The notes beneath the pieces were generated by a model that did no database searches, was not told the DNA's origin, and saw only the letters and a program-made list of their open reading frames with translations. Shown one piece after another: positions 1,866-14,657 of a stretch of DNA of 64,000 nt. The DNA comes from an uncultured Fibrobacter sp. (lineage in GTDB: Bacteria > Fibrobacterota > Fibrobacteria > Fibrobacterales > Fibrobacteraceae), in assembly GCF_947305105.1 (NCBI RefSeq), contig NZ_CAMZCS010000006.1:62001-126000 (forward strand), written 5' to 3'. The first letter of the stretch is position 1. Each line of letters starts with the position of its first letter. A program made the position numbers and the translations under genes.

Positions 1866-2993
1866 TTAGAAACTAAACACAGATTCAACACCGAACTTGA
1901 GACCTGCATCATCGCCAGCGTCATCCCCAACCGGGATATCCACCATGGCAAAGCCAGTAACTTCAAGCCCTTCCACCGGAGTGAAGTACGCACGGACACC
2001 GACATCGAACGTCGAAACATCGTCATTCTTGTCAACAGTATTCGTGTGGTATTCCAGCGGGATTCCCAAGGCAAGCGCATCCATGACACTTACACCCGGT
2101 TCTGCGTAGGCAAAGAAGTATTCCGGAATTTCTTCGCCATGATCAGTCGGTTCGTCTTCGTCAAAGTAAGCGTAGAAGGCAGTGCCCTTCACGTTCACCT
2201 TGCCTATTTCGAGCGAGGGTTCAGCCAAGAAAGCGTGCGCCGCCTTCGGAGAATCTTCACCGAGGTAATCCGAATGCAGGCCATAGACGGCATGCAGGCC
2301 GAAAGCACCGAACTTCAGATTCGCATCGAGACCGGCGTGCAGCTCATTGTGTTTCGCTTCCTGATAGGACTTGTAGTCCACATAGGGGCGCAGCACATGT
2401 TCGCCGAGACCGAGTTCGTAAGCAAGGTGGGCATCGTAAGCAACGCCTACACATTCCTCTTCATCTTCTTCTCCGGTGCAAACCTGGTTGTCGTTATCAC
2501 CACGACCAAAGCCGAGGCCGACAATCAAGCCATTGTAATCGACTTCAAAACCGCGGATATCGTGTTCTGTCATACCGGCAGCATTGTCAGCCGGATCATC
2601 ATAACCGTAATAGTTCAGGAACGCGCCTTCCGAGAAGGTCAAGTCTCCGAACTTCACCGCAGCATTTTCGCCATGCGTGTACTGGATAAATGCTCCATTG
2701 TAAATGGCAGTGGGGTCAGTCGTCTCGCCATCGGCTTCAAGCTGCACCGATGCAGACCACTTTTCATTAAACTGGACATCTACATTAAAGTCAAAGGTCG
2801 ATGCGTAACTATGGCTCTGTTTATCGTCGTTCAACACATCACCTGTATAGGCATCAAATTCTACTTCGCCAGAGAATTTGACTTCGGGGCCCTTAGATTC
2901 CGCAGCAGCAGATTCCTGAGCAAGCGCGGGCATTGCGAGGATTGCAGCGGCAGCAAGGCCGAACAAAAGATTAGACGACAAACGGTTTTTCAT
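1866..2993 (-). CDS. Outer-membrane beta-barrel (porin-like) protein, iron-linked by its promoter
   Basis: 375 residues with a clear signal peptide (MKNRLSSNLLFGLAAAAILA, cleavage probably after PALA-Q). The mature part consists of alternating short strands and acidic loops and ends in FSF, the aromatic end expected for BAM-assembled barrels. One loop holds a Cys pair in an acidic patch (CTGEEDEEEC). I cannot name a family with confidence; it resembles generic Fibrobacter-type porins. A perfect TTAG-N6-CTAA box about 150 bases upstream suggests control by the DtxR-type regulator encoded at 6390-6812, so a role in metal entry is plausible but inferred. Confidence 0.75.
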   Translation of the reverse strand: MKNRLSSNLLFGLAAAAILAMPALAQESAAAESKGPEVKFSGEVEFDAYTGDVLNDDKQSHSYASTFDFNVDVQFNEKWSASVQLEADGETTDPTAIYNGAFIQYTHGENAAVKFGDLTFSEGAFLNYYGYDDPADNAAGMTEHDIRGFEVDYNGLIVGLGFGRGDNDNQVCTGEEDEEECVGVAYDAHLAYELGLGEHVLRPYVDYKSYQEAKHNELHAGLDANLKFGAFGLHAVYGLHSDYLGEDSPKAAHAFLAEPSLEIGKVNVKGTAFYAYFDEDEPTDHGEEIPEYFFAYAEPGVSVMDALALGIPLEYHTNTVDKNDDVSTFDVGVRAYFTPVEGLEVTGFAMVDIPVGDDAGDDAGLKFGVESVFSF

Positions 2994-3141: not shown

Positions 3142-3155
3142 TTAGTCTAGTCTAA
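3142..3155. promoter_or_regulatory. DtxR-type operator TTAGTCTAGTCTAA upstream of porin
   Basis: Exact match to TTAG-N6-CTAA, the form repeated five times before dtxR/feoA. It lies between the end of feoB and the porin start, both on the minus strand, so it can only serve the porin promoter. Confidence 0.65.
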
Positions 3156-3228: not shown

Positions 3229-6060
3229 TTAATCTTCGAAGCGTTTTTCCTTGTTAGCCTTCATACCGAAGAGCTTGAGGAATATTCCCGTACCCACAAG
3301 AGCCACGATAGCAGCGACAATCCACTTGGTATCGCCTCCAACCGGCACCTGATAGAGAAGAACAGCCACAGCCCAGGCAAGAATTGTCTGCACGGTAGCC
3401 ATGAGAACAGCGAGGCCGAGGCCGATTTCGCGGGCGACGACACCCATTGCGGCAAGGCAAGGCACATAGAGCAAGATGAAGATGAGGAATGCAAACACCT
3501 GCCAGTTGAATCCGTCCACAGGGTTCCCGTTCTTATCCGGGTTGTGGAAGTAAGAGCGGAGGTTGGCGTAGATGTCGGCGGTTTCGGAAAGGTCGCCTTC
3601 TTCGAGAGCGCCCATTTCGTCTTCGGAGAGTTCGAGGCCTGCGGCAGCGAGCTTTGCGAACACGGCTTCGCGGGTCTTCTCGTCCTCTTCTTCTTCGCCG
3701 AAGGTTTCGATGGCTGCATATTCTTCGCAGGTCAGCACCTTGGCGTCGGTAATCTTGTCAAGAGTTTCCTTCTTGAGTTCGGCGGCTTCCTGGCCTTCCA
3801 ATTCGCCGGTGGTTCCGAGCGGGTCGGTGAGCGAGCCAAAGACTTCGGCGAGGTTAGCGGGAATCGAACCGAGGGCTTCGAGCACGGCCCCCTTGATGTC
3901 GGGAGCGCCGCCTTCTTCCTCTTCTTCGGCGGGGCATTCGTCGATGCCTACGATAAGCGGCTTTTCTTCTGGAACGGTCACTTCGGCAGGCTCAGTGACC
4001 TTGTTCGTGTCAGTAGCAGCAGAGTCAGGAGCAGCAACAGCAGAATCTGTGGTAGCGGCAACTTCACTGGATCCTTCGCTAGCTTCGGGGCGTTGCGGGG
4101 TGTCCCCGCTAGAAGGGGTAGCGGATGCCGCGTCAGTGGCAGGAGCGAGGGGAAGGCCTTCCCCTCCATCAACTCTTTCGTCTTTCGTCTCTCGTCTTTC
4201 GTCTTCATTCTCCCCCGCCATCGAATACAGCGAGTTCATGGTACCGATAACGGCTTCCTTGGCCAAGAGGCCCGTGAACAGAGACACAGAGGCCGGCCAG
4301 TTTTCCTTTTCGACACCGAACGGTTCGAACACCGGCGTAATGGCCTTACCGATTACAGAGAGCAAGCTGTTTTCGGAGTCACCGTTACCGGCTGTAAATT
4401 CAAATCCGGCGGGTTCATTGGTCGGAGCATTTTCATCAACAGCCTTCTCCACGATGCCAAAACTATTGAGGAAGCCGAGAACAGCAACCGCAAGCGTAAT
4501 CACCTTACCGGCACGCCAAATGTAGTCACGCAGGCGCTGCCAGCAGTGAATCATCAGGGACTTGAACTTGGGCAAGTGATACGGCGGAAGTTCCATCACA
4601 AAGTTAGAGGCCTGACCCTGGAACAGGGACTTCTTCAAGAAGAGGCCGTAGGCAACGGCGAACAGCACACCGGCGAGGTAAAGCAGGAACACCACCGTGC
4701 CCGCCATCTTGCCAAAGAATGCGGCGGCAAACAGCGCGTACACCGGGAGGCGTGCGCCGCAACTCATGAACGGCACCAGGAAGACGGTAAGGAAGCGTTC
4801 ACGCTTGGATTCCAGCACGCGAGAGCCCATAATGCCCGGCACGCCGCAACCGAAGCCCACCATCATCGGCACGAAGGCACGACCCGGGAGCCCGAGAAAT
4901 CTCATGAAGCGGTCCGCGACGAAAGCCGCGCGGGCCATGTAACCCGAGTCTTCGAGGAACGAAAGACACAGGAACATGAAGAAGATGACCGGGATAAAGG
5001 TCGAAACCGTCTGGATACCGGCACCGATACCGTCGGCGAGAATAGCAGACACAAAGCCCGGCGCATGGAGGACATCCGTAAGCACGTAGCCGAGGCCATC
5101 CACAAAAATCGCACCGAACAACACATCAAAGAAATCAATGAATGCAGAACCGATGGTGACCGCAATCCAGAACACCAAATACATGATGACAAGGAAAATC
5201 GGGAGAGCGGCCCAACGGTTCAAAAGTACGGCGTCAAGCTTGTCCGAGAAAGTTTTCTTGGCACGCTTCTCCACAACAGCCTTCCCCGCCACTTCATGCG
5301 CAATGGAATAGCGGTTTTCGGCCATCGCGAACTCCGGCTCTTCGCCCAGAATCTTCACGACATCGGCCTTATGAAGCGTTACGCCCGCTTCGGCAAACTT
5401 GTCCGCATAACTCTTCTGGTTGCCCAAGTACATGAGCGAAACCCAACGGGCATCCGTCGCCAAGAGTTCTGCAACCGGAGCCACCTTCGGCTCCAAGACC
5501 TTCACAGCCTCTTCGACCTTATCGGCATAGGCAATCTGCTTCGGGACCGGCATCGGGGATGCAAGCACATGGCCCATCTGGCTGATAAAGTTGGTGACGC
5601 TCTTTTCGCTCACAGCAGAAAGCGGAATGCACGGTACGCCGTAGAAATCAGAAAGTTCATCGAGGTCCAGCTGGATTCCGCGATTTTCGGCGATGTCCAT
5701 CATGTTGACGGCAATCACCATCGGAATCTTCATGTCGGCAAGCTGGCTCGTGAGGAACAGGTTACGTTCGAGGTTCGTTGCATCGACAATGTTGATAATC
5801 AGGCTCGCTTCGCGGCTGAGCAAGTAGTCGACAGCGGCGCGTTCGTCTTCGGCATTGGCGAACAAGGCGTAAGTACCCGGAAGGTCCACCAGGCGAATCT
5901 GGCGGTCACCCAGTTCAAAGTAGCCTTCCTTCTTTTCGACAGTCACACCAGGCCAGTTACCCACATGCTGACGGGCACCCGTAAGCGCGTTGAAGAGCGC
6001 CGTCTTACCGCAGTTCGGGTTACCGGCAATCGCAATCGTCAAAAGTTTTCTTGCGGCCAT
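3229..6060 (-). CDS. feoB: Ferrous iron transporter FeoB with expanded acidic linker
   Basis: Inner-membrane Fe(II) transporter with an N-terminal GTPase. G1 is GNPNCGKT near residue 13, G3 is DLPGTY and G4 NMMD; Gate motifs with conserved Cys (GCGVPGIMG, SCGARLPVY) and the C-terminal segment YVPCLAAMG follow. At 943 residues it is about 200 longer than usual. The excess is a hydrophilic, very acidic segment of about 235 residues (from about 615) before the last membrane helices. Its first part is encoded by tandem GACGAAAGAC-type and palindromic repeat DNA in frame. The ATG overlaps the feoA stop by one base (TAATG). Operon dtxR-feoA-feoB. Confidence 0.95.
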   Translation of the reverse strand: MAARKLLTIAIAGNPNCGKTALFNALTGARQHVGNWPGVTVEKKEGYFELGDRQIRLVDLPGTYALFANAEDERAAVDYLLSREASLIINIVDATNLERNLFLTSQLADMKIPMVIAVNMMDIAENRGIQLDLDELSDFYGVPCIPLSAVSEKSVTNFISQMGHVLASPMPVPKQIAYADKVEEAVKVLEPKVAPVAELLATDARWVSLMYLGNQKSYADKFAEAGVTLHKADVVKILGEEPEFAMAENRYSIAHEVAGKAVVEKRAKKTFSDKLDAVLLNRWAALPIFLVIMYLVFWIAVTIGSAFIDFFDVLFGAIFVDGLGYVLTDVLHAPGFVSAILADGIGAGIQTVSTFIPVIFFMFLCLSFLEDSGYMARAAFVADRFMRFLGLPGRAFVPMMVGFGCGVPGIMGSRVLESKRERFLTVFLVPFMSCGARLPVYALFAAAFFGKMAGTVVFLLYLAGVLFAVAYGLFLKKSLFQGQASNFVMELPPYHLPKFKSLMIHCWQRLRDYIWRAGKVITLAVAVLGFLNSFGIVEKAVDENAPTNEPAGFEFTAGNGDSENSLLSVIGKAITPVFEPFGVEKENWPASVSLFTGLLAKEAVIGTMNSLYSMAGENEDERRETKDERVDGGEGLPLAPATDAASATPSSGDTPQRPEASEGSSEVAATTDSAVAAPDSAATDTNKVTEPAEVTVPEEKPLIVGIDECPAEEEEEGGAPDIKGAVLEALGSIPANLAEVFGSLTDPLGTTGELEGQEAAELKKETLDKITDAKVLTCEEYAAIETFGEEEEDEKTREAVFAKLAAAGLELSEDEMGALEEGDLSETADIYANLRSYFHNPDKNGNPVDGFNWQVFAFLIFILLYVPCLAAMGVVAREIGLGLAVLMATVQTILAWAVAVLLYQVPVGGDTKWIVAAIVALVGTGIFLKLFGMKANKEKRFED
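4050..4217. repeat. Repeat-derived DNA inside the feoB linker
   Basis: Contains a tandem run of TCTTTCGTCT/CTCGTCTTTC units (4170-4210), the palindrome GGGAAGGCCTTCCCC and a GCGGGGTGTCCCCGC hairpin. Read on the minus strand it encodes a low-complexity stretch (DERRETKDER, then Pro/Ser/Thr/Ala-rich) without breaking the frame. Confidence 0.65.
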
Positions 6061-6344
6061 TATACCCTCCTCAGCTTAAGAACGTTTGCTTCTTCCTTGC
6101 GCAGCGAAAGCCTGTACGAAAGTACTGCCACCTCGATCGGGTCGCCGAGAGGGGCCGCCTGCAAGACTTCAATCTGGACGCCACGCACAAGCCCCATCGA
6201 AAGGAGCTTGGACTTGTAAGCGGAATCGCCTTCGTTATAGCCGACGATTTCCACCTTGTCGCCCTTTTTGAGTTCCGAGAATTTGGGCTCGGTACTCCAC
6301 TTTTTTGTATGCGACTTACCGCCGCAACCACAATTACAGCTCAT
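6060..6344 (-). CDS. feoA: FeoA-type SH3-like protein with Cys-rich N-terminus
   Basis: Small cytosolic partner of FeoB. 94 residues; the FeoA/SH3-like core runs from about residue 20 (KFSELKKGDKVEIVGYNEG ... LLSMGLVRG ... PLGDPIEVAVLSYRLSLRK). The start at 6344 is set by GAGG seven bases upstream; an upstream in-frame ATG at 6362 has no such site. The N-terminus MSCNCGCGG carries three Cys in six residues, unusual for FeoA and perhaps a metal or cluster site. It lies between the dtxR-type gene (45-base gap) and feoB (one-base overlap). Confidence 0.92.
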   Translation of the reverse strand: MSCNCGCGGKSHTKKWSTEPKFSELKKGDKVEIVGYNEGDSAYKSKLLSMGLVRGVQIEVLQAAPLGDPIEVAVLSYRLSLRKEEANVLKLRRV

Positions 6345-6389
6345 ATTATCCTCATATAACAAGACAGCGCCTGAACAGCGCTTTCCAGT

Positions 6390-6812
6390 TTACTTTGTGT
6401 TTTTGACAACCTTCGTTTTTTTCGCCGGAGAAATCGCATCTGCCGGCTTCATAAAATCTTCAATTTTTCCGAGCGTTTCCGCCGATAAGATATGTTCCAT
6501 GCAGCAGGCGTCCTTGTCGGCAATCGCCTCGGACACGCCAAGCTTGATCAGGAACCCCTTCAGGAGAATGTGACGGTTCAGAATCATGGCCGCAACGCGC
6601 TGCCCTTCTTCGGTGAGTTCCACACCGCTATAAGGTTCCTGCCTTACAAGGCCCATTTTCTTGAGTTCGACCATCGCCTTAGCTACCGACGGCATCTTCA
6701 CCGAAAGGGCCGCAGCAATGTCCTTAACGCGGGCAAGTCCATTCGCGAGGCGCAGCATGTGCACCATTTCCAAATAGTCTTCAAGACTCTGAGTAAGTTT
6801 TGTATGGTCCAT
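6390..6812 (-). CDS. DtxR/MntR-family metal-dependent repressor
   Basis: 140-residue iron/manganese-dependent repressor. The N-terminal winged helix (SLEDYLEMVHML ... VKDIAAALSV ... PSVAKAMVELKKMGLV) is followed by the dimerisation domain with the metal-site pattern LNRHILL and ACCMEHILSAET. There is no C-terminal SH3 domain, so it is of the short MntR/TroR form, with a basic Lys-rich tail. It heads the operon with feoA and feoB, which points to Fe(II) sensing. Five TTAG-N6-CTAA boxes lie just upstream, so it is very likely autoregulated. RBS AAAGG at about 8 bases. Confidence 0.9.
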   Translation of the reverse strand: MDHTKLTQSLEDYLEMVHMLRLANGLARVKDIAAALSVKMPSVAKAMVELKKMGLVRQEPYSGVELTEEGQRVAAMILNRHILLKGFLIKLGVSEAIADKDACCMEHILSAETLGKIEDFMKPADAISPAKKTKVVKNTK

Positions 6813-6825
6813 TTCTTAGCCTTTA

Positions 6826-6910
6826 TTAGTTGCGGCTAATATAGTTTAATAAAACTAATTAGGCAAGGCTAAAATTATTATAGAAAGCATATTTATTTAG
6901 AGAAATCTAA
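6826..6910 (-). promoter_or_regulatory. dtxR-feoAB promoter with three DtxR-type operators
   Basis: Boxes TTAGTTGCGGCTAA (6826-6839), TTAGGCAAGGCTAA (6859-6872) and TTAGAGAAATCTAA (6897-6910) all fit TTAG-N6-CTAA. A minus-strand TATAAT lies at about 6877-6882, between the last two boxes, so binding there would block the promoter of the dtxR-feoA-feoB operon. Confidence 0.75.
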
Positions 6911-6963
6911 CATTATAACCAAAAATTTACGAAATTTACGTAAATTTTCCCTTGTTTTTCTAG

Positions 6964-6998
6964 TTAGATTTATCTAACTTTCAGTTAGACAAGTCTAA
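6964..6998 (+). promoter_or_regulatory. Two DtxR-type operators facing a plus-strand transcript
   Basis: TTAGATTTATCTAA (6964-6977) and TTAGACAAGTCTAA (6985-6998), 21 bp apart centre to centre. They are well upstream of the feo promoter and directly precede the gene-free segment 6999-7122 that ends in a plus-strand terminator. Confidence 0.65.
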
Positions 6999-7122
6999 CT
7001 CGGAAAGTAGCCATAGTTTCAGATGCCGACTTGTTTGGTTGAATAAAGATCCATTCCCTCTTGTGTCTCTTTGGGAATAAATCGCGCCCCCGCTCAAGTA
7101 GCTCTGAGTAGGGGCGTTTTTT
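6999..7122 (+). ncRNA. Candidate iron-responsive small RNA
   Basis: This gene-free segment (part of the 344-base gap between dtxR and the P1B ATPase) starts right after two DtxR boxes. It holds an ATTCCC...GGGAAT hairpin (7051-7078) and ends in a plus-strand intrinsic terminator. Both neighbouring genes are on the minus strand and end or start away from it, so the terminator has no protein gene to serve. I infer a short RNA of about 100-120 nt made when iron is low, comparable in logic to RyhB. No homology is claimed; the start site is not defined. Confidence 0.4.
7085..7122 (+). terminator. Intrinsic terminator of the candidate small RNA
   Basis: CGCCCC-CG-CTCA and TGAG-TA-GGGGCG form a stem with one 2x2 internal loop, followed by TTTTTT at 7117-7122. 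Read the other way it has no T-run. Confidence 0.75.
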
Positions 7123-7156: not shown

Positions 7157-9238
7157 CTACGCCTGCTTCAACGGCGTCATGCTCTTGGCGCAGATCGCCA
7201 TGGTCGAGAGGTTGTGCAGAAGGGCCGAGGTCGAGGGGGCAAGTATTCCGAAGAATCCTGCGGCCAGGAGCGACGTGTTGAAGGCGACGATAAAGCGGTA
7301 ATTCGCCTGGATACGTTCCATAAGCTGGAAGCTCAATGTACGGAGTTCCGCAAGGTCGCGCAGGTCTTCGCTGCGAAGGGTCACGTCGGCGGTTTCGCGG
7401 GCAATGTCGCTCGCATCGCTCATGGCAACCGACACGTTCGCGGCGGCAAGAGCAGGAGCGTCATTGATACCATCCCCCACCATGATTACTCGGCGGCCTT
7501 CAGCCTTCATCTTTTCCACATAGCGGTGCTTGTCTTCGGGCAAAACCTGCGCAAAGAAGGTATCGATGCCCAAAAGTTGCGCCGTGCGTTCGGCGGCCTT
7601 CTGGCTATCGCCGGTAATCATCGCCACATATTTGATTCCGCGTTCGCGGAGCATGCGAATCGCTTCTGCTGCTTCGTCTCGCGGAGGATCGCTAATGCAA
7701 AGCACTCCCGCGAGGTTCCCGCCAATGGCAAGGTAAATCACGGAAGCGGCTCCGGCGAGTTCGTCAATACGCTGTTGTTCCGTGTCGCCGACGGAAACGT
7801 GCTCATCCTCGATAACAAAATGCTTGCTACCGATGACGGCACGTTCCCCGTTCAGAGTGGTCGCAATTCCATGCGCCACGATGTACTGAACGTCGGCGTG
7901 CTCTTCTTCGTGATCGATTTCCCTGTCGAGAGCCCCGCGCACAATGGCACGAGCCATACTGTGCGGGAAATGTTCCTCGATACAGGCCGCGATGCGAAGC
8001 ACCTCCTCTTCGCTACGGCCTTCAAAGGGAATGACACGTTCGAGCTTAGGTTCTGCTTTGGTGAGAGTCCCCGTCTTGTCGAAAATGATGGTGTCGGCAA
8101 GCGCAAATTCTTCCAGATACTTGCCGCCCTTCACGGTCATGTTGCGGTCGGCCGCTTCGCGGAGCGCCGAAATCACCGAAATCGGGGTTGAAAGCTTGAT
8201 GGCGCAAGAATAGTCCACCATCAGAATCGAGACGGCCTTGGTAATGTTGCGCGTAAACAGGAGCGTGAGCCCGAATCCGATAAAGCTGAACGGTACAATT
8301 CCGTCGGCCAGGCGTTCGGCGCGGCTCTGGATAGAAGCCTTCAGGTCTTCGGAGCGGTCAATGAGTTCGATGATTTTTTGAATCTTGGTGTTGCCGCTCA
8401 CGGCTCGCACAGATACTACGATGGAGCCTTCGTCCACGACAGTGCCTGCAAAAACGGACTTTCCGACCGTCTTGTGCACCGCCTGCGATTCGCCCGTCAT
8501 AGTCGCTTCGTTCACGAATGCATCGCCTTCGGCAACGGTTCCGTCCACCGGAATCATGCTGCCGGAACGAACGCGCACAAGGTCGCCCACCTGAACATCC
8601 TGCATACGCACCTGGACATCAACACCGTCCTTGACAACCCACACGCGGTCTACCTTCACGGCAAGGCTTGCGGTAAGGGCCGTGCGGGTACGCGCCTTGG
8701 TGTAATCTTCCAAGAGACTACTCACGTTCAACAGGAACATGATGGTCCCTGCCGATTCGTAATTGCGCTGCAAGATGCTCGCCCCGATGGCAGCACCGTC
8801 CAACACTTCGACGGAGAGTTTGCCTTCGCCAAGGCAGTTCAAGCCCTTCGCCACAAACTTGAGGCCCCTGTAAATCAGGTGCGCCGTGCGAATGGGGGCC
8901 GGAATCAGCAACTTGGCCAGGTAACGCCGCGCAATCATGAACGCAAGCCGGTTCTTGAAACGCGTATCGAGTTCCTGCAGTTGGTATTCAGTATCGGGCT
9001 CGCTCTCAGGGAGATTTGCAACATCCAGATTCCGGACAAAATCAATCACCTGTTCACGATAGCCGTTTTCGTATTCCAGCAGAATGCCGCCGTTTTCCGA
9101 ATGGACTACCGCTTTCTGGACATAAGGTTCACTCACGCATGCCTTGTGGATGCGCGATTCATGCACACGCTCAAATGCATAGGCCCCCGCCCGAAAGCGG
9201 ATTCGCCCCGGCTGATCGTAAACGATTCTAGACTTCAT
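7157..9238 (-). CDS. P1B-type metal ATPase of ferrosome (FezB / P1B-6) type
   Basis: 693-residue heavy-metal P-type ATPase. The N-terminus has an HMA-like fold without CxxC and begins with an Arg-rich motif PGRIRFR at residues 10-16. Then come TGES, phosphorylation loop DKTGTLT, an HP-type motif (HFPHSMA) and GDGINDAPAL. The membrane metal motif is YSC (VDYSCAIKLSTP) instead of CPC, which excludes the usual Cu and Zn/Cd classes. The C-terminus (LLHNLSTM) also fits the P1B-6 class to which FezB of ferrosomes belongs; this assignment is from memory of the family. It follows a 73-residue partner gene and adjoins the iron regulator and feoAB. Iron is the most likely substrate (inference). Confidence 0.85.
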   Translation of the reverse strand: MKSRIVYDQPGRIRFRAGAYAFERVHESRIHKACVSEPYVQKAVVHSENGGILLEYENGYREQVIDFVRNLDVANLPESEPDTEYQLQELDTRFKNRLAFMIARRYLAKLLIPAPIRTAHLIYRGLKFVAKGLNCLGEGKLSVEVLDGAAIGASILQRNYESAGTIMFLLNVSSLLEDYTKARTRTALTASLAVKVDRVWVVKDGVDVQVRMQDVQVGDLVRVRSGSMIPVDGTVAEGDAFVNEATMTGESQAVHKTVGKSVFAGTVVDEGSIVVSVRAVSGNTKIQKIIELIDRSEDLKASIQSRAERLADGIVPFSFIGFGLTLLFTRNITKAVSILMVDYSCAIKLSTPISVISALREAADRNMTVKGGKYLEEFALADTIIFDKTGTLTKAEPKLERVIPFEGRSEEEVLRIAACIEEHFPHSMARAIVRGALDREIDHEEEHADVQYIVAHGIATTLNGERAVIGSKHFVIEDEHVSVGDTEQQRIDELAGAASVIYLAIGGNLAGVLCISDPPRDEAAEAIRMLRERGIKYVAMITGDSQKAAERTAQLLGIDTFFAQVLPEDKHRYVEKMKAEGRRVIMVGDGINDAPALAAANVSVAMSDASDIARETADVTLRSEDLRDLAELRTLSFQLMERIQANYRFIVAFNTSLLAAGFFGILAPSTSALLHNLSTMAICAKSMTPLKQA

Positions 9239-9322: not shown

Positions 9323-9544
9323 TTACTTACCTGCTTCTTTCTTCGCGTCGTTGCAGATGTCGGCGGCTTCGTCCTTCATATCCTGGAAGGCGGCCTTGGC
9401 ATCGGCGGTGAGTTTCATGCCTTCGGCAAGTCCCTTGACTGCATATTCACGCGTCTTCGGAGCCTTGACAATCTTCTTAATAATGGCCGGGCCCACGACA
9501 CCCGCCACCACGCACCAGAACTTTTCATTTTTCCATACGGACAT
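9323..9544 (-). CDS. Small membrane-anchored protein, DUF6110-like, partner of the P1B ATPase
   Basis: 73 residues. One hydrophobic helix (FWCVVAGVVGPAIIKKIVK, about residues 9-27) with small residues Gly/Ala/Pro in a zipper-like spacing, then an amphipathic Lys/Ala/Glu-rich tail (LTADAKAAFQDMKDEAADIC) that could form a helix on a membrane surface. Small proteins of this type (DUF6110) commonly sit next to P1B ATPases; small helix proteins with glycine zippers are part of known ferrosome operons. It is the first gene of the operon; start with AGGAG about seven bases upstream. The function is not established. Confidence 0.7.
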   Translation of the reverse strand: MSVWKNEKFWCVVAGVVGPAIIKKIVKAPKTREYAVKGLAEGMKLTADAKAAFQDMKDEAADICNDAKKEAGK

Positions 9545-9685
9545 AGCTTACTCCTTTGTTGATTGTTTGCTAAAAATCTACCTAAAACTTCATTAAAAAG
9601 CAATTTACATACAAACTAACAAACAGACTTCAAACCCAAGTTCCATAAGCTTTCCAAGCAACTAACAATGTTGCAAATTCCCAAT

Positions 9686-9762
9686 TTAGTTCAGGCTATA
9701 CAACTTAGTTTCCATTCAAATAACTTAGTTAGATTGAACTATCCAAAGTTAGCGAACGCTAC
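9686..9762 (-). promoter_or_regulatory. Three degenerate DtxR-type boxes upstream of the P1B ATPase operon
   Basis: TTAGTTCAGGCTAT (9686-9699), TTAGATTGAACTAT (9729-9742) and TTAGCGAACGCTAC (9749-9762) each match TTAG-N6-CTAA except at the last base. The middle one sits in TTAGTTAGATTGAACTATCC, close to the perfect box at 6964. They are 140-220 bases upstream of the 73-residue gene; the last overlaps the end of the TonB receptor gene. Confidence 0.5.
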
Positions 9763-13733: not shown

Positions 13734-13769
13734 TTGACAAAGTTTTAATAGCTAGTTAGATTTGTCTTA
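13734..13769 (+). promoter_or_regulatory. araC promoter with DtxR-type box over the -10
   Basis: TTGACA (13734-13739), 17-base spacer, TAGATT (13757-13762). The box TTAGATTTGTCTTA (13756-13769) overlaps the -10; its surroundings AGTTAGATTTGTCTTACTTT match the perfect box region at 6962 in 18 of 20 bases. Confidence 0.65.
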
Positions 13770-13820
13770 CTTTTTAAGACGTGACTAACAAAACAATTCA
13801 GATTGATTTATGAGGAAAAC

Positions 13821-14657
13821 ATGTTAAGTATCAACGGAATTGAATGGCTGCACAAGATTGGGTGCTACCACACGACTCTCACAAGGGAACCGCTTTTGGT
13901 CCTTGAATTTTGCCGGAAGGGACGTATCAGTTGGGCCGGGGGCGCACTCCCCTGTAATCAGCTGAAAGCCGGAGAATTGCTGGTTTACGACGCATGGACT
14001 TCGGGAGCGTTGACCCGTTCCGCAGATTATTGCGGCGACCGCATCCTGTTCTACGAGGAATCCACAAAATACATACAAGAACATTTTGCAGGTTTCCAAC
14101 TTGATATCAAGATGCTCGCTCAAAAAATCTGCCGTCCAGGACGTCCGTTCATCGTTCACACCAAAGAAGAAGTCGCCCGCGCTTTCGAAATGGTCGAAAA
14201 CAAGACGAAGAATTCTTTGACAGAATACGGCAGGCTCGCAATTTTGGAACTGCTACTCACCTTGAAAAATCTAGATACACAAAGGGAATACGCCTGCCGT
14301 GAATGTAACCTGTCGTCGTTACAGATTGAAAAAATTTACGGAATCCGCACGTTCATTTGTGAAAACATGGATAGCCATTTCACCATTGAAGAGCTTTCCG
14401 ACAAGTTCGACATGCCCCCCACCGCAATGAAGCTCTGTTTCAAGAACGTATTCGGGCTGCCCGTATTTACTTATGCACGTCGCGAGCGCATGAAAATTGC
14501 AGCCAAGGAGCTCCGTGAAAGTGACCATGGAATTCTGCAAATCGCAGGCACGGTCGGGTACAATAACGGGAGCAAGTTCGCCCACGCTTTCCAAGATGTA
14601 ATGGGCATGACCCCGAAGGAATACAGGAAACGATACAGACTTACAAATGTAGCATGA
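13821..14657 (+). CDS. AraC-family transcriptional activator of the iron region
   Basis: 278 residues. The C-terminal AraC DNA-binding domain has two helix-turn-helix motifs: FTIEELSDKFDMPPTAMKLC and ILQIAGTVGYNNGSKFAHAF, ending with the family signature MGMTPKEYRKRY. The N-terminal half is a sensor domain like those of YbtA/PchR-type regulators. The start at 13821 is fixed by GAGGAAAAC before ATG. It precedes the two ABC half-transporter genes on the same strand, as YbtA does next to YbtPQ. Its promoter carries a DtxR-type box, so it is probably made when iron is low; it is the likely reader of the CCATTTGG boxes. Confidence 0.9.
   Translation: MLSINGIEWLHKIGCYHTTLTREPLLVLEFCRKGRISWAGGALPCNQLKAGELLVYDAWTSGALTRSADYCGDRILFYEESTKYIQEHFAGFQLDIKMLAQKICRPGRPFIVHTKEEVARAFEMVENKTKNSLTEYGRLAILELLLTLKNLDTQREYACRECNLSSLQIEKIYGIRTFICENMDSHFTIEELSDKFDMPPTAMKLCFKNVFGLPVFTYARRERMKIAAKELRESDHGILQIAGTVGYNNGSKFAHAFQDVMGMTPKEYRKRYRLTNVA

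Follow-up and report, generated by a model that had tools for sequence, protein, structure and literature searches.

Many bacteria use iron-repressed small RNAs, among them RyhB, PrrF and FsrA. RyhB and PrrF are controlled by Fur and depend on Hfq; the Fibrobacter RNA described here shares their logic as proposed, an iron-repressed RNA turning off iron enzymes, but has no homology to them. FsrA of Bacillus subtilis binds the Shine-Dalgarno region through a C-rich motif and has the sdhCAB leader (cytochrome b558 SdhC) as a target (PMC9410917, PMC11257911). Control by a metal repressor, a C-rich motif on the Shine-Dalgarno region and a targeted sdhCAB leader are likewise predicted for the Fibrobacter RNA; FsrA, however, has Fur and the FbpABC helpers, whereas the Fibrobacter RNA would answer to a DtxR-family repressor and has no Rfam match. 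MrsI of Mycobacterium tuberculosis carries an IdeR box in its promoter, occurs in a host without Hfq and is iron-sparing (PMC8628891, PMC9410917). DtxR-family control, a host without Hfq and an iron-sparing role are what is proposed in Fibrobacter as well; the phylum, the sequence and the seed are different, and the reported targets of MrsI are hypF, bfrA and fprA.

IsrR of Staphylococcus is Hfq-independent and genus-restricted, has C-rich single-stranded parts and counts sdhC among its predicted targets (PMC9410917, PMC11257911). The Fibrobacter RNA as proposed is like it in all four respects; IsrR, though, is under Fur control and has a different structure. RsaC of Staphylococcus aureus resembles the Fibrobacter RNA in its link to an MntR-type repressor (PMC9294342), but answers manganese, whereas the Fibrobacter element stands beside feoAB. 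No homology to FsrA, MrsI, RyhB or IsrR was found, so the Fibrobacter RNA would be part of a similar circuit while standing outside these RNA families. As to small RNAs associated with iron-sensing DtxR, a review from 2022 gives 'none reported' (PMC9294342); the one near case is MrsI under IdeR (PMC8628891). A literature search returned no small RNA described for Fibrobacter, nor such an RNA for the phylum.

Layout of the locus

The DNA analysed, referred to as the window, is a 64-kb stretch (G000:C6:62001-126000) of a 3.57-Mb genome in 72 contigs. Conservation, structure, promoter, operators, terminator and complementarity were determined by computation. The following features were assigned (window coordinates, strand in brackets where one applies):

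3229-6060 (-): feoB (PF02421, TIGR00437)
6060-6345 (-): feoA (PF04023)
6390-6812 (-): dtxR, gene of a DtxR/MntR-family repressor, 140 aa (Pfam PF01325 and PF02742)
6826-6839, 6859-6872 and 6897-6910: three more TTAGN6CTAA boxes, at the minus-strand dtxR-feoAB promoter
6952-6957 (+): -35-like hexamer TTGTTT; TTGNNN-17-TAACTT is conserved
6962-6979: operator 1, perfect 18-bp palindrome AGTTAGATTTATCTAACT, between and over the promoter hexamers; 33 of 33 loci
6975-6980 (+): -10-like hexamer TAACTT, overlapping operator 1
6983-7000: operator 2, perfect 18-bp palindrome AGTTAGACAAGTCTAACT, over the predicted start site; 28 of 33 loci
6986-7038 (+): stem-loop 1 (SL1), with invariant GCCAUAG in its apical part; covariation
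about 6987-7122 (+): putative small RNA gene, ~136 nt, 5' end placed from the promoter and 3' end from the terminator
7053-7078 (+): stem-loop 2 (SL2), AUUCCC/GGGAAU stem, sequence invariant
7059-7072 (+): proposed seed, the SL2 loop UCUUGUGUCUCUUU, predicted to be unpaired
7084-7122 (+): intrinsic terminator made up of stem-loop 3 (SL3) and a T run of six (7117-7122)
7157-9238 (-): gene of a P-type ATPase (P1B in the first-pass annotation), flanking the element downstream

The first-pass annotation of this DNA had described two perfect DtxR-type boxes, two hairpins and a plus-strand terminator with six Ts between two minus-strand genes. Both boxes are indeed perfect palindromes, both flanking genes (dtxR and the ATPase gene) lie on the minus strand, and the terminator with its six Ts was recovered. 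The hairpins are also present, but they number three, as SL1 uses operator 2 as its 5' arm.

Distribution and conservation

Loci were sought with a covariance model across 111 genomes of the family. The element was found at 33 loci in 32 of them, all within the genus; strong matches to the stretch itself were obtained in 16 of 61 genomes, again all of the same genus, where most of the element aligned at 82-99% identity. When named genomes were scanned for the seed hairpin, the hits fell in records bearing the name Fibrobacter or F. succinogenes, almost exclusively MAGs. The locus of G015 is cut in the terminator, and G001 and G085 are possibly mixed MAGs. Three kinds of outside match were discarded: one in Desulfobacterales from the collection scan, a chance hit that lacks all other parts of the element; one filed under a Clostridia MAG (JAFWZN010000087.1), which is Fibrobacter DNA with the dtxR-feo RNA locus; and those of a model of the 3' half on 40 RNA-free genomes, which were ordinary terminators only, the best included (E 0.0087, G012). 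The 3'-half model thus revealed no hidden homologue of the RNA in these 40 genomes, and phage records gave no match to the element.

In the alignments, conservation begins at the promoter and ends with the T run; G000 and G031, for instance, are 99% identical in the element and differ in the DNA behind the T run. At 32 of the 33 loci the element is oriented divergently to dtxR-feoA-feoB, or to feoAB alone in G033 and G015, whose loci lack dtxR. The ATPase gene adjoins it in fewer than half of the loci, and the downstream gene varies. A free-standing copy in G085, flanked by genes for a transporter and a small protein, has its own boxes, promoter and a rebuilt terminator; in G008 the element is absent and dtxR abuts the ATPase gene. 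The first-pass annotation had counted a lack of conservation as evidence against its small-RNA reading; the element proved to be both conserved and structured, whichever gene lies downstream.

These data bear on a reading without any RNA gene, by which the stretch would merely join the terminator of the ATPase gene to the operators of the dtxR-feo promoter. A hairpin does lie ~35 nt past the ATPase stop codon, but its T run belongs to the plus strand, the stretch persists in full at loci without the ATPase gene and in a copy away from dtxR-feo, and SL1 covaries as RNA (see below); this reading is very improbable. Hardly more credible, and if anything less, is the idea that the stretch encodes a small protein or leads a plus-strand gene downstream as a riboswitch or attenuator. 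A terminator hairpin follows a structured stretch, as that proposal has it, but here the neighbouring downstream gene runs on the other strand, and it differs between genomes. The best Rfam match, to a microRNA model with a cut-off of 211 bits, scored 24.6 bits, far from threshold, and no bacterial small-RNA family appeared at E values up to 10. Indels of one to three bases break all reading frames; no frame survives them, which speaks against a small protein gene.

Predicted structure of the RNA

Seven of the 20 pairs of SL1 are changed on both sides, and the covariation score exceeds that of all 500 shuffles, a comparison weakened by the relatedness of the loci. Pairing is kept in 86% of cells, as against 26-51% in slid controls. 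Operator 2 is missing from one clade that retains the RNA stem: the five loci without it keep SL1 by compensating changes (GGCGGGUC/GAGCCUGCC replacing GACAAGUC/GGCUUGUC), so selection seems to act on the RNA itself and not on the operator alone. The terminator stem shows a C-G/U-A exchange, and the same stem is made from other letters in G085. Because SL2 never varies, covariation cannot judge its pairing; the conservation of hairpins in related genomes, which had been suggested as a check, is borne out by covariation in SL1 and by pair exchange in SL3, with SL2 constant in sequence.

Fold prediction gave the seed loop an unpaired probability of 0.75-1.0 across 7060-7072. Its core UUGUGUCUCUUU occurs in every aligned locus except one, where it is displaced by an indel, and the loop is the most constant part of the element, even in G085 with its rewritten SL1 and SL3. 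The element folds better than shuffles (z -2.1). The terminator pattern by itself is within chance (2 found, 1.5 expected in the terminator scan), so the case for an RNA rests on conservation. Taken together, the stretch is very probably a real gene for a structured small RNA. In the G108 RNA, ~20 nt are duplicated in tandem after SL1.

Operators and promoter

A pattern search of the whole genome for exact GTTAGANNNNTCTAAC returned operators 1 and 2 only; with one mismatch allowed, the hits were the same intergenic stretch and a site before an AraC-type regulator gene at 13803. The shorter pattern TTAGN6CTAA occurs six times in the 64-kb window (0.48 expected; none of 100 shuffles reaches six), and five of the six boxes fall in 6826-6998. 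The dtxR-feoAB operon has a promoter-like match at 6866-6838 on the minus strand. On the plus strand, TTGNNN-17-TAACTT with its 17-bp spacing is present at 32 of the 33 loci, the remaining locus having one substitution in the -10 hexamer. The exact operators are unique in the genome and overlap this conserved promoter, which supports control of the RNA gene; repression of the small RNA by metal through the DtxR-family protein is probable.

Further sites were seen in the window. The one-mismatch operator GTTAGATTTGTCTTAC (13755-13770) lies directly upstream of the AraC-type regulator gene (13803-14657, plus strand), which is followed by ABC transporter genes from 14701; these genes probably belong to the same metal regulon. 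A site of TTAGN6CTAA type, TTAGTCTAGTCTAA (3142-3155), lies between feoB and an ORF resembling an outer-membrane protein (1866-2993, minus strand). A two-mismatch operator (9728-9743) was noted upstream of a weak DUF1490 match (9323-9544, minus strand) and the P-type ATPase gene; the DUF1490-like gene and the ATPase could be a metal-efflux pair.

Repressor and metal

The top NCBIfam scores of the repressor are those of MntR models, yet they remain under the model cut-offs, and its nearest solved structures (PDB) are also MntR. Asp12 aligns with Asp8 of MntR, and Cys103 aligns with Cys102 of DtxR and Glu99 of MntR, residues with roles at the metal site (MntR Asp8 and Glu99; DtxR Cys102). The protein thus appears closer to MntR than to DtxR, with a mixed metal site (D12/C103). 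Since the repressor is partly MntR-like, the metal sensed may be iron or manganese; Fe2+ is the likelier signal, as the repressor gene shares an operon with feoAB.

A metal-repressed small RNA that senses manganese, as an analogue of RsaC under MntR, would agree with the NCBIfam and PDB matches and with Asp12 at the place of MntR Asp8, and RsaC is the MntR-linked RNA on record (PMC9294342). Such an RNA is nevertheless unlikely here: the repressor is encoded in one operon with feoAB, Cys103 corresponds to DtxR Cys102 where MntR has Glu99, three further boxes lie at the feo promoter, and iron enzymes head the predicted targets. Another gene of the DtxR family (79% identity) is located at G000:C6:48158-48577, ~13 kb before the window. 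FeoB has 943 aa, and its second half contains a long acidic, low-complexity insert.

Predicted target sdhC

Targets were sought by pattern searches and in genome stretches. The loop complement AAAGAGACACAA was searched with at most one mismatch in nine RNA-bearing genomes, and AAGGAGACACAA (one G-U pair) was found over the sdhC ribosome-binding site in all nine of this first scan. Where the sdhC start of an RNA-bearing genome could be read, this motif was there in 26 of 27 cases; the one without it (G001) is a suspect MAG. The gene was identified as sdhC by TIGR02046 and is followed by genes for the flavoprotein and iron-sulphur subunits (sdhCAB fumarate reductase/succinate dehydrogenase). The predicted duplex has 16 continuous pairs with UCUCAAGGAGACACAA at positions -20 to -5. 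Pairing of the loop with sdhC was calculated at -24.7 kcal/mol, as against -14.2 +/- 3.1 at other starts, the background being the 250 best-pairing of 288 other starts in the genome, which is conservative. Against this background, z values were -3.4 for sdhC, -2.3 for sodB and -1.6 for rubrerythrin; none of 200 shuffled loops equalled the sdhC value or the sum. The motif AAGGAGACA occurs at one of 59 AAGGAG starts in 459 kb. RNA-bearing and RNA-free genomes differ significantly for sdhC only (rubrerythrin p 0.11, sodB p 0.10), shared ancestry being ignored in this contrast.

Proposed role

Fibre-degrading Fibrobacter ferment mainly to succinate, and the final steps of that route are catalysed by fumarase and fumarate reductase. 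We infer transcription of the RNA, the metal sensed, repression by the DtxR-family protein and the effect on targets from the patterns above, as follows. With plentiful metal, most likely Fe2+, the neighbouring DtxR-family repressor would bind the palindromes and block transcription of the RNA; under iron shortage, the RNA would be switched on along with the divergent dtxR-feoAB operon. The RNA would work without Hfq, which was detected in none of 37 genomes by a search that found it in five of 14 control genomes. The SL2 loop UUGUGUCUCUUU and flanking GGGA would pair over 16 bp with the sdhC ribosome-binding site UCUCAAGGAGACACAA and so block translation of sdhCAB, with leuC, class I fumarase, rubrerythrin and Fe-type superoxide dismutase as probable further targets in some species. 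The cell would then spend less iron as FeoAB imports more.

An iron-sparing role with sdhC as target appears somewhat better founded than not, judging from sequence. The explanation as a whole, a trans-acting small RNA of Fibrobacter that is the functional counterpart of FsrA and RyhB, is reasonably likely, and the RNA very probably represents a new small-RNA family, with a likely iron-sparing role. This agrees with the earlier suggestion of an iron-linked counterpart, which is now favoured by a conserved gene, by a 16-bp complementary match with the sdhC ribosome-binding site and by shorter ones at other iron enzymes. The evidence is evenly poised on whether this is the first iron-sparing small RNA of the Fibrobacterota, DtxR-family-controlled, Hfq-independent and lowering fumarate reductase (in some species fumarase), so that iron sets fermentation output. 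If true, the iron-sparing circuit would have been invented independently once more, again around its favourite target, in bacteria where Hfq was not detected, and a link between iron supply and succinate in the rumen would become directly testable.

Other candidate targets

All start matches were read in five genomes and part of them in the others. Some 12 distinct genes have a near-complete loop match at the start, and by plain count five of the 12 are iron enzymes: sdhC, leuC (G000, G029 and G033), class I fumarase (G029 and G005), rubrerythrin (rbr) and sodB (both G033). The fumarase start of the source genome, G000, has no loop-complement site. Rubrerythrin leaders carry AGACAC-type matches at shifting positions, which are statistically weak; sodB and rubrerythrin are not claimed as firm targets, the statistics being too weak. 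Motifs were also found at non-iron genes in some genomes (gpmI, alaS, a TolA/OmpA-like gene and several single cases). The target prediction against mRNAs of iron proteins that the first-pass annotation had proposed came out strongly for sdhC and in some species for leuC, fumarase, rbr and sodB, with sites also in RNA-free relatives.

The same sdhC site is present in ~8 relatives without detectable RNA, and the leuC start of RNA-free G008 and G024 has a perfect 12-mer complementary to the RNA loop. Consequently, the sdhC and leuC sites are not maintained by the Fibrobacter RNA alone: either they predate the RNA, whose loop fits them, or the outgroup has another RNA of similar seed that was missed. 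A metal-repressed RNA with other targets, or one acting on protein, would make the iron-gene matches old and conserved ribosome-binding sites that fit by accident. The persistence of sites in RNA-free relatives, the similar 12-mers at gpmI, alaS and other genes, and the likewise conserved SL1 and terminator loop are in keeping with this. Against it stand the rarity of AAGGAGACA at start sites, the lack of any shuffled loop that matches equally well, the constancy of the loop in G085 and the over-representation of iron enzymes among the matches; this alternative is rather unlikely.

A loop-like sequence in RNA-free G008 and G024, considered as an RNA gene, was traced to the leuC start, where it is the loop complement; the leuC and sdhC sites of these two genomes hint at another RNA with a similar seed there. 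The strongest pairing in the background was that with the start of a 265-aa protein (AAGGAGACTCAAAATG, -25.9 kcal/mol; G000:C6:126001-146000, minus strand, near 9605), which is without an NCBIfam match.
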